From: a virus
Direction: 5' to 3' (one strand)
Length of the DNA: 39,243 bases
IMG/VR virus record: IMGVR_UViG_3300044697_000005
Span: 1-39,243 of that record
Shown: positions 4,347 to 23,726 of the stretch, piece by piece
Layout of the letters: every line of letters starts with the position of its first letter
Numbering within the stretch: position 1 is the first letter of the stretch
Program-made: the position numbers and the translations under genes
Notes under the pieces: model-generated
What the model was told of the DNA's origin: nothing
The model's input: the letters and a program-made list of their open reading frames with translations, nothing else
Databases searched by the model: none

Positions 4347-5158
4347 TTAGTGCGTCACCTTCACCCTTCGATTGATACGATTGTCTTTCGCAAACGCACC
4401 CATGACGGCTTGTCTTGCCTCTTCGCCTTTCAATTCTTGTCTAGGTTTGATGGTCGCTGGCCCGCGCTCGCCTGGCTTGAAAAATTCAGATTGTTCTTTG
4501 GGCTTTCCGTAGCGCTGAAAGAAATCCACCGTGTCAAGAAAACCTTGTTTGTCCATTTGACCGGCTCTTGAGGTCCAGCAATCGTAAAGATAATCCTGGC
4601 CTCTAAGAATGCGAGACGCCTCAAGCATCGCGAAAAATCTTTTCGCTGGCATGTCAAGGACGTGATCTACACTCCACCCGTAATAATGGCAAACTTCAGC
4701 AATCAACATCGTCGCCTCAATTTTGAGGCCTTCTACACTGCTGCCTGTTCCGTCGGTTGACTCTCTAGAGTTTTTTTTTGAGCAGAGTCCGCGTAAGCTT
4801 TTCCGCTCACGCATTCCATAATTTGCGAGGTCAATATTCCGATTTGAGGTAAAGTCATATCCTGAATGTCAGCCCAAGAAATGGTTCCGACAGCGGCATG
4901 AAATACCTTCCAGTAGGCCAAAAGAATTTCTTTCTGACTTACTTTTTCGGGTTTTTTCCTCAACGCCTCCAATCCGGCGAGTTCGTTCGTAACCTTGAGG
5001 AAAGTTTTTGTGTCCATCGGTTTAATAAGATGAACTTTTCCTTTCCAACGAAACCCGACCGGATCGTTAACGACTCTGTCCAAATCTACTATCACCCTAG
5101 TGTCATCACTTGGTATCGCTTGACGAGCAGGAGTCAGTTTAAAAAGCCTTCCTAACAT
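4347..5158 (-). CDS. Tail assembly chaperone, -1 frameshift product (lambda GT-like)
   Basis: The upstream frame (5158 to the A-run at 4779-4771) and the downstream frame (to 4347) overlap, and the downstream frame lies in the -1 frame. The overlap carries the homopolymer C-A9-C, read in the upstream frame as CAA AAA AAA ACT, a classical slippery site. Slippage there would join about 129 residues of the first frame to 141 of the second, giving a protein of about 270 residues. The downstream part has no good start near the overlap; its first in-frame ATG is at 4709, well inside the frame. Such G/GT pairs between tail tube and tape measure genes are near universal in siphoviruses. The longer form is thought to bridge tape measure and tube proteins. 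Confidence 0.8.
4733..5158 (-). CDS. Tail assembly chaperone, short form (lambda G-like)
   Basis: A 141-residue protein made when ribosomes do not slip at the A-run near its 3' end. It starts MLGRLFKLTPAR at 5158, ten bases after the tail tube stop. It is mostly helical and charged in the middle (LAGLEALRKKPEKVSQKEI), as in other tail chaperones. It should coat the tape measure protein during tail assembly and be absent from the virion. After the slip site only about 13 codons remain (TLESQPTEQAAV and stop). Assignment is by gene order, size and the frameshift signal rather than by sequence recognition. Confidence 0.75.
   Translation of the reverse strand: MLGRLFKLTPARQAIPSDDTRVIVDLDRVVNDPVGFRWKGKVHLIKPMDTKTFLKVTNELAGLEALRKKPEKVSQKEILLAYWKVFHAAVGTISWADIQDMTLPQIGILTSQIMECVSGKAYADSAQKKTLESQPTEQAAV
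4769..4781 (-). promoter_or_regulatory. Programmed -1 ribosomal frameshift site
   Basis: Minus-strand sequence TCAAAAAAAAACT contains nine consecutive A residues. The zero frame reads CAA AAA AAA ACT and the -1 frame reads TCA AAA AAA AAC. Immediately downstream, ACTCTAGAGAGT is self-complementary and could form a small stimulatory hairpin. The location in the tail chaperone pair makes programmed slippage very likely. Efficiency cannot be judged from sequence. Confidence 0.75.
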
Positions 5159-20190: not shown

Positions 20191-21546
20191 CTACTTTAGA
20201 ATTCTCATGACTCCAACTTCATTTTGCATTTCGGTTCCTAGAGTGAATACTGGATACCCCGCTGCGTCACTTGCGTGAGTCAGTTCTTTATCTTTCGTTT
20301 GATCGAGGATCGCTCCGTTTGCGTTTTCTTTCCAAGACACGCGGTCGAAGTCTCGACCCAAGTAGTGACAATTCTTTCGGTGATACCAGAGATGGACGGA
20401 TCCGTCGGCGGCTTTGAGTCTGGCGTTTATTGCGTTGACTCGGTCTTTGACGGGTGGATTGGAATCGGTTGTTCGATCCTCGAAACGGATCTGAGCATCA
20501 CGGAGAGCCTTGTGAATAATCGTGTAATCGGTCTGACCCACGGCAGACGTTTTGTTGGCTTTCCCCGTTGCATCGCCCACAAGAATAATTCCTGGTTTAT
20601 GGCCTCGCACTCTAGATATAAGAACCTGCACAGCTTCCTGAGTATGAGAGCCTTTGAGAGCGATTTCATCGAACCACCACCAATCGTTTCCGCGTTGTTG
20701 ACCCAATTCCCAGCATATCAGATTGACGTTGAAGTCCATACCGACGACGATAGGGAGGAACGGCGCGTATAAAACATTCGGGTCATTCGCGGATCCGTCA
20801 AGCGAGAACGGGCATATTTCGCGCCAGTTATGTTGCCCGTGTCCGAGATAGACTTTGCCGGCGCCCATTTCGCGAAACTCGGCTAAGATTTCTTGAGCGA
20901 ATTGATCTTCTGACATTGAATTGCGAGCTGATTCGACTTCTTTCGGCGTCCACCACGGAGCGACGGTGCTCGGTGCGTGAAACGTCGCCCATTCTGGATC
21001 TAATTTTGCTGCATTGAATAAATCGTAAAAGTGTTCGTACCCGTTCGGAGTGCTGAGAATGTCAGCCCACCCGTTTTTATGCGCGAGCATGGGGCGAATA
21101 ACGAGAGGCCATAAATCAGGCGGTTGTTGCCGATATTCGTCGATTACGACACCGTTTAGGGTTTCAATACGCAAATCTTGATAATTTTTGCCCGATTTAA
21201 ACGAAATAATGGGCCCATGATAAAACTGACACGAGAAATCGCTTTCGTTAGGTTTCTTTGCGAATGCGCTCGGAGCAGATAAATAAAATCGCATCATGCG
21301 TTTGAATGCGACTTGAGCGGCTTCCCAGGTTTGAAGCACGTACCAATAAATGCCTTCACGTGGCCCAATCCATGCTTTGTCTGCGATTTTATTCAAACCA
21401 TACGTTGTCTTGCCCGATTGCCGGCCAAAACATATTGCGTTAAATCGCGCAATTGAAGCGTGAAGTTGTCTTTGACCTTCATGCGGAGTGTAAAGCTTAA
21501 GTGTTGCTCGGCGTGGCTTCGCCGAACTGGGTATCGTGCGTGACAT
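20191..21546 (-). CDS. terL: Terminase large subunit
   Basis: A 451-residue DNA packaging motor. The ATPase has Walker A GRQSGKTT at 41-48, Walker B VVIDEY at 133-138 and coupling motif STPNG at about 165-169. The C-terminal RNase H-like nuclease shows VVGMDFN (Asp271), ILVGDATGK (Asp325) and a final Asp in THASDAAGY. Its only credible start, the ATG at 21546, lies 50 bases inside the small-subunit gene, an unusually long overlap. It acts with the small subunit and portal to cut and fill the head. Packaging type (cos or pac) cannot be told by eye. Confidence 0.93.
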   Translation of the reverse strand: MSRTIPSSAKPRRATLKLYTPHEGQRQLHASIARFNAICFGRQSGKTTYGLNKIADKAWIGPREGIYWYVLQTWEAAQVAFKRMMRFYLSAPSAFAKKPNESDFSCQFYHGPIISFKSGKNYQDLRIETLNGVVIDEYRQQPPDLWPLVIRPMLAHKNGWADILSTPNGYEHFYDLFNAAKLDPEWATFHAPSTVAPWWTPKEVESARNSMSEDQFAQEILAEFREMGAGKVYLGHGQHNWREICPFSLDGSANDPNVLYAPFLPIVVGMDFNVNLICWELGQQRGNDWWWFDEIALKGSHTQEAVQVLISRVRGHKPGIILVGDATGKANKTSAVGQTDYTIIHKALRDAQIRFEDRTTDSNPPVKDRVNAINARLKAADGSVHLWYHRKNCHYLGRDFDRVSWKENANGAILDQTKDKELTHASDAAGYPVFTLGTEMQNEVGVMRILK

Positions 21547-21835
21547 GTTCGGTTACATCAGCGGTGACTTTCGATTCTAATTTTTCAGATTGATCGAGCA
21601 TTTGTTTGCCGAGCCATATTAACATCGCGACGTTTCCTTTTTGTGCGGATTCGATTTGCCATCGACGTATGGACATTTTCAAATCAGAACGTCCTTTAGC
21701 TAATTCTGCCGCATAACGTCGTTGAATGGTATCTGTCGAACATTTGAAATGATCTGCGATTTCGACAGTTTTGCATCCGATTTGTGCGAATTTTTCAACG
21801 AGTGCGTTATCGATTTCCAATTTAGGTCTAGCCAT
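21497..21835 (-). CDS. terS: Terminase small subunit
   Basis: A 112-residue protein directly upstream of the large terminase. The N-terminus is a helix-turn-helix DNA-binding domain (VEKFAQIGCKTVEIADHFKCSTDTIQRRY, about 13-41), followed by a helical segment (DLKMSIRRWQIESAQKGNVAMLIWLGKQML) found in many small terminase subunits. It should recognise the packaging site and regulate the motor. The gene starts opposite the divergent plus-strand gene, with a 46-base gap that contains a promoter-like sequence on the other strand. Confidence 0.82.
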   Translation of the reverse strand: MARPKLEIDNALVEKFAQIGCKTVEIADHFKCSTDTIQRRYAAELAKGRSDLKMSIRRWQIESAQKGNVAMLIWLGKQMLDQSEKLESKVTADVTEHVTHDTQFGEATPSNT

Positions 21836-21846
21836 AATTTAACCTA

Positions 21847-21874
21847 TTGCGTTATTTATGCATTGTGTTATAAT
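21847..21874 (+). promoter_or_regulatory. Promoter-like site, plus strand, shared motif
   Basis: On the plus strand TTGCGT (21847-21852) and TATAAT (21869-21874) are spaced by 16 bases, a good sigma70-type pair with a perfect -10. The segment 21858-21876 (ATGCATTGTGTTATAATGA) matches the promoter-like site on the minus strand at 26334-26352 at 17 of 19 positions. It would drive the small plus-strand gene, whose ATG is only seven bases after the -10, so the mRNA might be leaderless or a later ATG (21897) may be used. Confidence 0.55.
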
Positions 21875-21881
21875 GATTGAC

Positions 21882-22115
21882 ATGAATGATCGCATAATGA
21901 AATTCGATTCTTTTAAAAAACACGCGATGCTTGGTCGTTTATACATGCGTTTAACCGCGCTAGAATTGAATATAGCGCATTCTTTCATCAAAGAACATAG
22001 CGAGGCATCAAAAAACGATTTTGATCGCGCTGTGAACCGTTTGTTCATTAATCGTGACAAACCGCGACATTGGCTTGAAATCATGGAATTGCTTTCATGC
22101 TGTTCATCCCGATGA
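21882..22115 (+). CDS. Small plus-strand protein, possible regulator
   Basis: A 77-residue protein, start at ATG 21882 or 21897, right after a promoter-like site. Sequence MNDRIMKFDSFKKHAMLG then helices (LYMRLTALELNIAHSFIKEHSE, NDFDRAVNRLFINRDKPRHWLEI) with natural charge and no signal peptide. The opposite frame (21839-22084) has poorer composition. It is divergent from the terminase gene and its 3' end overlaps that of the ABC-GNAT gene by 35 bases. Position opposite the late genes suggests a regulatory or accessory role. No family recognised. Confidence 0.5.
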   Translation: MNDRIMKFDSFKKHAMLGRLYMRLTALELNIAHSFIKEHSEASKNDFDRAVNRLFINRDKPRHWLEIMELLSCCSSR

Positions 22116-23199
22116 ATTCGAAACTGAATGTTTTGATGTTTTCACGATAACCTGTTCTTCGCATCATGGAACCGCCGTGATTCATTTTGCCGATTTGACG
22201 CTTCGTTTCCAACAAACGCCATGCTGTGTTTTTGATCATGCTGCGATAAATCGGAACGCTCGAAAATTTAGCCATAACGCGATATCCTCGAGATTTCATA
22301 ATTTGGCTGCTTTCGTTGATTACTTTAATGCCCAATCCAAACCCCGCGTAATCGGGATGTATGACCGTTCGATTGCTGTGAAAAATCGGGGTTTTCCCTT
22401 TTTGTGCTGGTACATAATTTGCGAAACATTGAAATCCGATTTGATCGGATTTGTGAAACAATCCAAATGTGAATATTTTCCCGCCGGGCAATCGATCACT
22501 TAAATAGTGATATTTGCTAAAATATTTCCAAGTGTTCGTCCCGACTTCGCGTAATTCGAAATTGAGTCGTTCTTTGCGTTCGCGTGATTGAAGTAACCTC
22601 CGATCAACGAATTCTTGTTTGTTGCAATCAATCACCCAATCCGGGTTTAACCATTCCATTACGTCGTAATGACATGACAACAAAATTAATCGTTTTTTAT
22701 TTTTACGCGCAAATTTTTGAACACAATAACTCATGACTTTCGCCACCGTTCGATCGACGACGGATGTCCATTCATCGATGACGTTGATTTCGTTCGACGC
22801 GATCATATTTAAAACCGCTTCCGCTCGTGCGCGTTGCCCATTCGATAATGTTTTAACGGGCCTGATCCAACAAGGGACACTAGTTAAACCGATGCCGGAT
22901 AACATTTCCGCGCATTCATCGTAATTTAATTTTTCAGGCAATTGATCGATAATCGGTTTATCAACATCGATCACGACGTTGAAACAATTTTGACCAAACA
23001 TTTGTTTCGCGAGCGTTGTTTTGCCTGACCCACTGGCCCCGACAATCAATCCGATTGAAAATTCCGTTTTTAAATCCGCATTTATTGTTAATTCATGAAT
23101 GCTTTTCTTTTTCGCGTCTATGTCTAAACTATCAGCAGCGCGTTGACATCGATATGATTTCGAAACATCGCTTTGCAATTTCACGTGATAAGTTTGCAT
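22081..23199 (-). CDS. ABC-type ATPase fused to GNAT (Mom-like) acetyltransferase
   Basis: A 372-residue two-domain protein. Residues about 45-205 are an ABC-type ATPase: Walker A GASGSGKTT (54-62), signature LSNGQ (118-122), Walker B INVIDEW (138-144) and the switch His in SCH (175-177). There are no membrane segments, so it is not a transporter. Residues about 208-372 are a GNAT fold with KYHYLSDRLPGGK (229-241) and the acetyl-CoA loop HPDYAGFGLG (281-290), resembling Mom-type acyltransferases of phages that modify adenine in DNA. It overlaps the ParB-like gene upstream by 19 bases. The proposed DNA-modification role is inferred from the Mom resemblance and the ParB partner; other substrates are possible. 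Confidence 0.8.
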   Translation of the reverse strand: MQTYHVKLQSDVSKSYRCQRAADSLDIDAKKKSIHELTINADLKTEFSIGLIVGASGSGKTTLAKQMFGQNCFNVVIDVDKPIIDQLPEKLNYDECAEMLSGIGLTSVPCWIRPVKTLSNGQRARAEAVLNMIASNEINVIDEWTSVVDRTVAKVMSYCVQKFARKNKKRLILLSCHYDVMEWLNPDWVIDCNKQEFVDRRLLQSRERKERLNFELREVGTNTWKYFSKYHYLSDRLPGGKIFTFGLFHKSDQIGFQCFANYVPAQKGKTPIFHSNRTVIHPDYAGFGLGIKVINESSQIMKSRGYRVMAKFSSVPIYRSMIKNTAWRLLETKRQIGKMNHGGSMMRRTGYRENIKTFSFEFIGMNSMKAIP

Positions 23200-23726
23200 T
23201 CAAATCCTCGTTCGCTTAATTCTTCAAATAATTTTTGCATTTCTTGTTCGTTTTTACATTCCACGGCGATGATGAATTGCGTAGTTATTTTTTCCGCTTC
23301 CAAAGGAATTTGAATGTTTGCGTTCATCATGAAATCTTTGATGCCCAACAAATCCAAATCGAAATCCGGTCCGAGATCGCCGATGTCGGCGTTGATCCCA
23401 ACTAAATCCAGTTCAGCCCAAGATCCGATGCTGTTATCTGAAACTCCTGCGGCGTACTCTTGCTGTGCGTCCTCGAAGTCCTGATAGATCACAGGGACGT
23501 GTGCGAGTCCCATTTTCTTTGCCGCTTCTAATCTGCCGTGTCCGCATACGAGAAAGCCAGATTGATTGCTGACAACGAGCGGGATGCGAAACCCCTGATA
23601 GCGAATGATTTCGCACAAACGCTCAATTTGTTCGGGCGAGTGTTTATTGCGATTGTTCGGATTCGGTTTGATGGTTTCGATCTTGACTATCGAAATGTCT
23701 TTGCTTTGAATCTTAATCTTTTTCAT
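23181..23726 (-). CDS. ParB/sulfiredoxin-like domain protein
   Basis: A 181-residue protein. Residues about 12-85 are a ParB-type domain: NPNNRNKHS (22-30), a helix (EQIERLCEIIRYQG), RIPLVVSNQSGFLVCGHGRLEAAKKMG (47-72) with the GHGR nucleotide-binding loop, then VPVIYQDF. There is no helix-turn-helix domain after it, so it is not a plasmid-partition protein. The C-terminal 30 residues (VECKNEQEMQKLFEELSERGFECKLI) resemble a small tail seen on phage ParB-like proteins and methylases. Members of this fold can bind CTP/ATP and some act as kinases or nucleases. It is coupled to the ABC-GNAT gene, suggesting a joint DNA-modification function. Confidence 0.82.
   Translation of the reverse strand: MKKIKIQSKDISIVKIETIKPNPNNRNKHSPEQIERLCEIIRYQGFRIPLVVSNQSGFLVCGHGRLEAAKKMGLAHVPVIYQDFEDAQQEYAAGVSDNSIGSWAELDLVGINADIGDLGPDFDLDLLGIKDFMMNANIQIPLEAEKITTQFIIAVECKNEQEMQKLFEELSERGFECKLIT

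Follow-up and report, generated by a model that had tools for sequence, protein, structure and literature searches.

The prediction that proteins joining an ABC ATPase to a GNAT acetyltransferase domain (ABC-GNAT) acylate a base in DNA is said to originate from Iyer, Zhang, Burroughs and Aravind (NAR, 2013). Phage Mu encodes another GNAT, Mom (PF25680, phrog_1384), which modifies adenine. The passages on ABC-GNAT proteins in an article from Aravind's group (PMC7824862, Viruses 2021) put forward this base acylation, and in these passages there is no mention of ParB, of slippage or of an exchange with Mom. In open-licence PMC papers we found no experiments on ABC-GNAT proteins, whether biochemistry, mass spectrometry or nucleoside analysis. 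A partly comparable set of proteins is known from Dnd phosphorothioation, where DndB belongs to the ParB superfamily and DndD is an ABC ATPase (PMC10853773).

Here we have analysed an IMG/VR virus record of 39,243 bp (the window), in which a ParB-like gene overlaps an ABC-GNAT gene. A preliminary description had proposed that the two form a DNA-modification cassette. The window protein shows the domain order of the family described by Iyer et al. (ABC at the N-terminus, followed by GNAT) and is homologous to the published example from Tenacibaculum phage pT24, with 35% identity at 86% coverage by BLAST (E = 7e-46). It differs from this example by the addition of a ParB partner and by its position before the terminase. 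In pT24 itself (L064), an in-frame stop at about position 4753, in the GNAT part, gives rise to two annotated genes. That ABC-GNAT proteins acylate bases is a prediction already in print, of which the window is a further example. Our additions, which we did not find in the open-licence PMC literature, are the exchange with Mom, the profile that bridges Mom and ordinary GNATs, the link to the tail of ParB, and the slippage devices, all described below. By analogy, the window resembles Dnd in that a ParB-superfamily protein and an ABC ATPase would be combined with a DNA-modifying enzyme. Unlike in Dnd, no cysteine desulfurase, DndC or DndE was noticed among the neighbours of the window family, the ABC unit is short and leaves no space for a coiled coil, and the chemistry would be acyl transfer.

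A ParB gene overlapping an ABC-GNAT gene before the terminase

Both open reading frames were located on the minus strand where the preliminary description had placed them, ParB at 23181..23726 (181 aa) and the ABC-GNAT fusion at 22081..23199 (372 aa). The stop region of the first overlaps the start of the second by 19 nt (23181..23199), an arrangement that suggests translational coupling of the two genes. Relatives are arranged in the same way, overlap or abutment of both genes being kept in 142 viral and 28 genome loci. The pair indeed stands right before the terminase: downstream on the same strand come a probable small subunit (TerS, 21497..21835), recognised by its position, a 50-nt overlap with the next gene and weak HTH and terminase-small matches, and the large subunit (TerL, 20191..21546; phrog_2, E = 2.8e-28; Pfam Terminase_6N, E = 7.6e-5). 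Between ABC-GNAT and TerS, at 21839-22115, short ORFs overlap one another on both strands (81 aa on the minus and 85 aa on the plus strand).

The whole ABC-GNAT protein matches phrog_11143, a PHROGs family of 'unknown function' (E = 8.6e-79), and for the C-terminal part a match was obtained to phrog_7693, 'acetyltransferase' (E = 1e-7). The ABC ATPase domain comprises residues 1 to about 200 (22600..23199, minus strand), ABC_tran being above the Pfam cut-off (E = 3e-6), and the GNAT domain residues ~205-364 (22108..22587, minus strand). Alignment of 51 homologues showed as invariant the Walker A residues G54, G57, G59 and K60 (motif 54-61), L118-S119-x-G121 of the ABC signature (LSNGQ, 118-122), D142-E143 of Walker B, S146 and D149 of the D-loop and the switch residue H177; the ABC ATPase of the preliminary description is complete in every motif. 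Inside the GNAT part, H231-Y232, R277, P282-D283 and G286 were invariant, and G288 and G290 of the acetyl-CoA motif HPDYAGFGLG (281-290) nearly so. An AlphaFold2 model based on the 51 homologues (mean pLDDT 90.5, pTM 0.86) had both domains folded, with the strand and helix order of a GNAT in the GNAT part. When the full-length model was compared with the PDB by Foldseek, the matches listed were ABC nucleotide-binding domains only. PADLOC defence-system models gave no convincing match, that is, nothing beyond short ATPase-motif matches and the ParB part of an MTase model.

The family is widespread. A tblastn search with the window protein returned 80 phage records and 830 plasmid records, many of the latter matching the ABC part only, and the fusion is present in hundreds of viral and bacterial contigs. 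Hosts include Streptococcus, Lactococcus, Leptospira, Porphyromonas and Gordonia for the phages, and prophage-like loci of many bacterial genomes, Planctomycetes among them, also carry the gene. Current annotations read 'ABC iron siderophore transporter', 'ABC transporter' or 'hypothetical'. The transporter reading finds no support in the neighbouring genes: those that recur encode ParB and terminase, and none is annotated as a separate permease.

A survey of homologous loci recovered the same pair, with ParB upstream of ABC-GNAT in 197 of the 206 loci that had enough sequence, and a TerL gene starting at most 4 kb downstream in 155 out of 192. Taken together, these two figures indicate that the module is viral and, judging from gene order, tied to DNA handling. 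The link to packaging drawn in the preliminary description is suggested by this synteny; the copies of pT24 and Porphyromonas do not lie beside a terminase.

As regards the ParB protein, Pfam ParB_N covers residues 10-89 (E = 5.5e-9; 36.4 bits against a cut-off of 26.3), and matches were also obtained to PHROG ParB families and to the ParB-MTase family phrog_498 (E = 2.6e-29). The ParB/Srx domain (residues ~10-90) includes the nucleotide motif GHGR. Compared to a canonical ParB partition protein, the HTH required after ParB_N is absent: Pfam found no HTH family, in agreement with the preliminary description, and the protein ends with a tail. Similar proteins have received other names, since the 'DNA modification methylase' upstream of the gene in Streptococcus phages is a ParB of 172 aa, too short to hold a methylase domain. 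A 2025 survey of the ParB-CTPase fold describes fusions of ParB to an acetyltransferase, among them one that binds GTP (PMC12704722).

The part of ParB most constantly linked to ABC-GNAT is its C-terminal tail of ~35-40 residues, IIAVECKNEQEMQKLFEELSERGFECKLIT in the window (23184..23300, minus strand). Of 223 loci, 202 gave a match to an HMM of this tail ahead of the ABC gene. In one Porphyromonas prophage (L358:4864-4992) the tail occurs as a free peptide of 42 aa (E = 1.8e-4) that overlaps ABC-GNAT by 4 nt. Because the tail is the ParB part constantly found upstream of ABC, and once on its own, we infer that it is the piece touching the ABC protein. The 42-aa 'acr candidate' of Porphyromonas prophages is this free copy of the tail, and probably not an anti-CRISPR. 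The idea that ParB acts as a kinase or activates the substrate found no support, the conserved part of ParB being the C-terminal tail and ABC-GNAT also existing without ParB. An obligatory role of ParB as partner was rejected as well, given that ABC-GNAT stands without ParB in jumbo phage pT24 and in four related contigs (L056-L059). On account of these ParB-less copies, ABC-GNAT is the core of the module.

The GNAT domain between Mom and ordinary acetyltransferases

The preliminary description had called two GNAT motifs Mom-like. The claim holds for the HY of KYHYL, an H-Y pair shared with Mom (H231-Y232 in the window, H48-Y49 in Mom), and fails for HPDYAGFGLG, an ordinary GNAT acetyl-CoA motif. 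Membership of the Mom family based on motifs was rejected, both because this second motif is generic and because the window GNAT stays below the gathering cut-off of Pfam Mom PF25680 (13.1 bits, E = 0.076, against 27.1 bits). Family profiles did show similarity to Mom: hhalign gave a probability of 80-84 with E about 1e-5 and a score of 41.8, while 40 column-shuffled Mom controls reached 19.7 at most. The alignment spans only the N-terminal ~70 columns (~71) of the GNAT family, including the HY pair, and it stops before the SFADE region of Mom (D139) and Y149, for which no equivalent residue was aligned. Pfam Mom matched 11 of 42 family members (best E = 0.0023), compared to 40 of 42 for the ordinary GNAT models Acetyltransf_1/7 (best 2e-9). 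In profile-profile comparisons with ten ordinary GNATs, Mom gave nothing (score 12), whereas the ABC-GNAT family matched the same ten in the acetyl-CoA half (E = 5e-9). Since the family matches both Mom and ordinary GNATs and Mom itself does not match the latter, the domain is, at the profile level, a bridge that joins a canonical acetyl-CoA half absent from Mom to a Mom-type substrate half. By the same comparisons the window GNAT is Mom-like and not a Mom: it shares with Mu Mom the GNAT fold, the H-Y pair and the N-terminal half of the domain, and differs from it by the canonical GxGxG acetyl-CoA motif, missing in Mom, and by the fused ABC ATPase. A search of a viral structure library was compatible with this result and not decisive, with a Mom at rank 11 among many GNATs and many unrelated viral GNATs at E-values similar to that of Mom.

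The domain is matched better by ordinary GNAT profiles than by Mom, and the Mom alignment is confined to the N-terminal part; a protein or a small molecule may therefore be the substrate instead. Accordingly, the GNAT domain might acetylate a protein, such as the host RNA polymerase, a restriction or nucleoid protein, ParB or the terminase, the ABC unit acting as a regulatory ATPase. The acetyl-CoA half, closest to ordinary protein and small-molecule GNATs, would suit this role, and a phage GNAT acting on RNA polymerase, Rac, is cited in PMC7824862. We regard a protein target as unlikely, however, in view of the Mom-type HY with its profile match and of the one locus where a Mom-family gene takes the place of ABC-GNAT; moreover, protein acetyltransferases are not known to have an ABC unit or a constant ParB partner.

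This replacement was observed in two Porphyromonas prophages, phage011a_WW2952 and phage012a_381OKJP, which share a flank of 4.6 kb at 88.6-92% identity. At the right-hand end of both, after the same tail gene, one prophage carries ABC-GNAT, preceded by the tail peptide and followed by a formyltransferase-like gene (Formyl_trans_N, E = 6e-12), and the other carries a Mom-family gene with 33% identity to Mu Mom (E = 9e-20). A Mom is thus found at the locus of ABC-GNAT in one prophage pair. Interchange of the two genes at a single site argues that they may have equivalent functions, and no other single argument for this is as good. The observation comes from one prophage pair. As evidence for DNA modification the exchange is stronger than the KYHYL motif.

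Further genes recur next to the family. A gene with an ASCH domain, a PUA-related nucleic-acid-binding fold, lies 3′ of GNAT in 13 Firmicutes-type loci, and directly so in Streptococcus and Oenococcus phages (L253:3631-4008, L255:3548-3916, L252:3639-4031). In another locus (L053) a DUF5681 protein has a partial ASCH domain fused to it. Genes resembling Formyl_trans_N (PF00551) follow ABC-GNAT directly in about eight loci (L358:6116-6589, L006:1805-2452, L242, L207, L219, L226, L227 and L234), a hint that subfamilies may differ in the group they transfer or in how it is processed.

An NTPase joined to a GNAT is also known from the RNA cytidine acetyltransferase TmcA/NAT10, which targets a base amine, and by this logic the enzyme might modify tRNA or rRNA in the manner of N4-acetylcytidine. 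A weak profile match to 9j3c (E = 0.047), restricted to the GNAT motif, goes in the same direction. TmcA/NAT10 differs by its helicase-type ATPase and its RNA substrate, whereas the ATPase of the window is of the ABC type, and the constant ParB and terminase synteny together with the Mom exchange point to DNA. An RNA target is accordingly highly improbable.

Slippage signatures at the ABC/GNAT joint

The reading frames at the joint between the two domains were classified by anchors on both sides in 222 loci (70 were unanchored), of which 169 remained at 90% nucleotide identity. Plain fusions like that of the window made up 128 of these non-redundant loci, and the other 41, about a quarter, carried a slippage device. 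In 12 of them the GNAT part lay in the -1 frame and was preceded by a Y_YYY site whose codon position never varied (mostly G_GTT_TTT, with A_AAT_TTT and G_GTC_CCC as further forms). In 8 it lay in the -1 frame after an A or T run of at least 8 (9-12 nt), and in one in the +1 frame after A11; the remaining 20 had an in-frame joint with an A or T run of at least 8. At the joint of the window copy there was no slippage site, and the frame, taken as it reads, shows a gene expressed as a single fusion.

Both kinds of site are concentrated at the joint. In the rest of the ABC part, Y_YYY occurs at 1% of codons. Runs of at least 9 A or T numbered 29 in 16.8 kb of joint, whereas 80.5 kb of ABC sequence held 2 (Fisher p = 2.5e-20, a value made too small by the kinship of the sequences, although the contrast is still clear). 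The heptamer has a precedent in gene 10 of phage T7, and runs of nine A or nine T are established sites of transcriptional slippage in bacteria (PMC5009743). Most loci of the Firmicutes class lack a GNAT start codon in the ABC/GNAT overlap, and the -1-frame GNATs are under purifying selection, with dN of 0.05-0.5 against dS mostly above 1. Sequencing error is an unlikely cause of the frame changes in this class, considering that homopolymers do not exceed 7, that the frame change recurs in isolate genomes and that dN in the shifted frame is well below dS. A programmed -1 frameshift is probable, as judged by these signatures, in L004, L062, L252-L255, L257, L261-L279 and L325.

A clade around L280-L322 (also L128) keeps the in-frame sequence GGGCA10TAGA codon by codon among 20 non-redundant members with a median identity of 76%. 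Among the synonymous windows of the gene, the A10 site has changed least once the start region overlapping ParB is set aside. Here a -1 slip always meets TAG at once, and in a second clade with T10 (L039, L041, L069-L089) it meets TAG or TAA in most members. We found no RNA structure with covariation that could act as a slippage stimulator in the A10 clade. Close relatives include frame-changing variants, with A11 in L284, L305 and L327, A12 in L285 and a TAA just before A10 in L051; in all five, single contigs with an A- or T-run, the change may be real or due to a sequencing or assembly error.

The device recalls dnaX, which uses a ribosomal frameshift in E. coli and transcriptional slippage in Thermus. 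Common to both are an A- or T-run after the ATPase domain, a short and a long product, and a shifted frame that stops immediately; dnaX is, however, another gene, and the ABC-GNAT device occurs in part of the family only and is absent from the window. Production of ABC alone in a dnaX-like manner is probable for the A10 and T10 clades, and many phages with a slip site may make both ABC and ABC-GNAT.

In some phage-plasmids and large phages, ABC and GNAT are separate genes, the GNAT being phrog_886, a family named 'ABC transporter ATP-binding subunit' (L258:3925-4806, L005:6115-7068, L260:4891-5775). Despite its name, phrog_886 looks like the separate GNAT, one member matching Acetyltransf_10 and the GNAT part of phrog_11143. 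In L005 a thioredoxin sits between the two. Such separate genes, the ABC alone that slippage would yield and the TerL synteny described above could also be read as signs that ParB and ABC form a DNA-organising or packaging accessory, for instance a loader or clamp for the terminase, to which GNAT would be an optional regulatory add-on. In the examined loci, however, the lone ABC is closely trailed by the separate GNAT, the -1-frame GNATs are maintained by purifying selection, and the module also occurs away from the terminase in pT24 and Porphyromonas. We consider a packaging accessory quite improbable.

Proposed function of the module

Base acylation is favoured by the exchange with Mom, the profile match to Mom through the invariant HY, the ParB and TerL synteny, the ASCH neighbours and the published prediction, and is opposed by the better fit of ordinary GNAT profiles. 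The DNA-modification cassette of the preliminary description is the best explanation of the locus, based on the Mom profile match and the exchange, with the correction that the window protein is not a Mom. The reading that we favour, and hold to be reasonably probable, is that ParB and ABC-GNAT form a phage module for acylation of DNA bases against restriction. The cassette would be expressed late, ahead of packaging. Upon ATP binding, the soluble ABC domain would dimerise and carry the GNAT domain on phage DNA, where an acyl group from acyl-CoA would be transferred to the exocyclic amine of a base; adenine N6 might be that target, by analogy with Mom only. ParB, translated just ahead through the 19-nt overlap, would dock via its C-terminal tail and could serve as a nucleotide-gated DNA clamp or as a regulator. 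The acylated bases would shield phage DNA from host restriction before it is packaged. Where slippage occurs, ABC alone would be made besides ABC-GNAT, probably for mixed dimers, and the window would supply the fusion only.

A more far-reaching version, which we put forward tentatively and regard as doubtful, is an ATP-driven base acyltransferase distinct from Mom, in which the tail sits on the ABC dimer, slippage sets the subunit ratio and the product is an undescribed phage base modification. Such an enzyme would be an ATPase machine in which only a minority of subunits bear a catalytic head, and slippage would have arisen several times, as ribosomal -1 frameshifting in Firmicutes phages and through A- or T-runs elsewhere.

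The exchange with Mom renders the function of ABC-GNAT directly testable. If the module does modify DNA, ABC-GNAT would be a widespread anti-restriction system, whose chemistry is testable on isolates LE3 and LE4 (Leptospira) and P335 (Lactococcus), and the repeated slippage devices would represent a new natural case of dnaX-type recoding.
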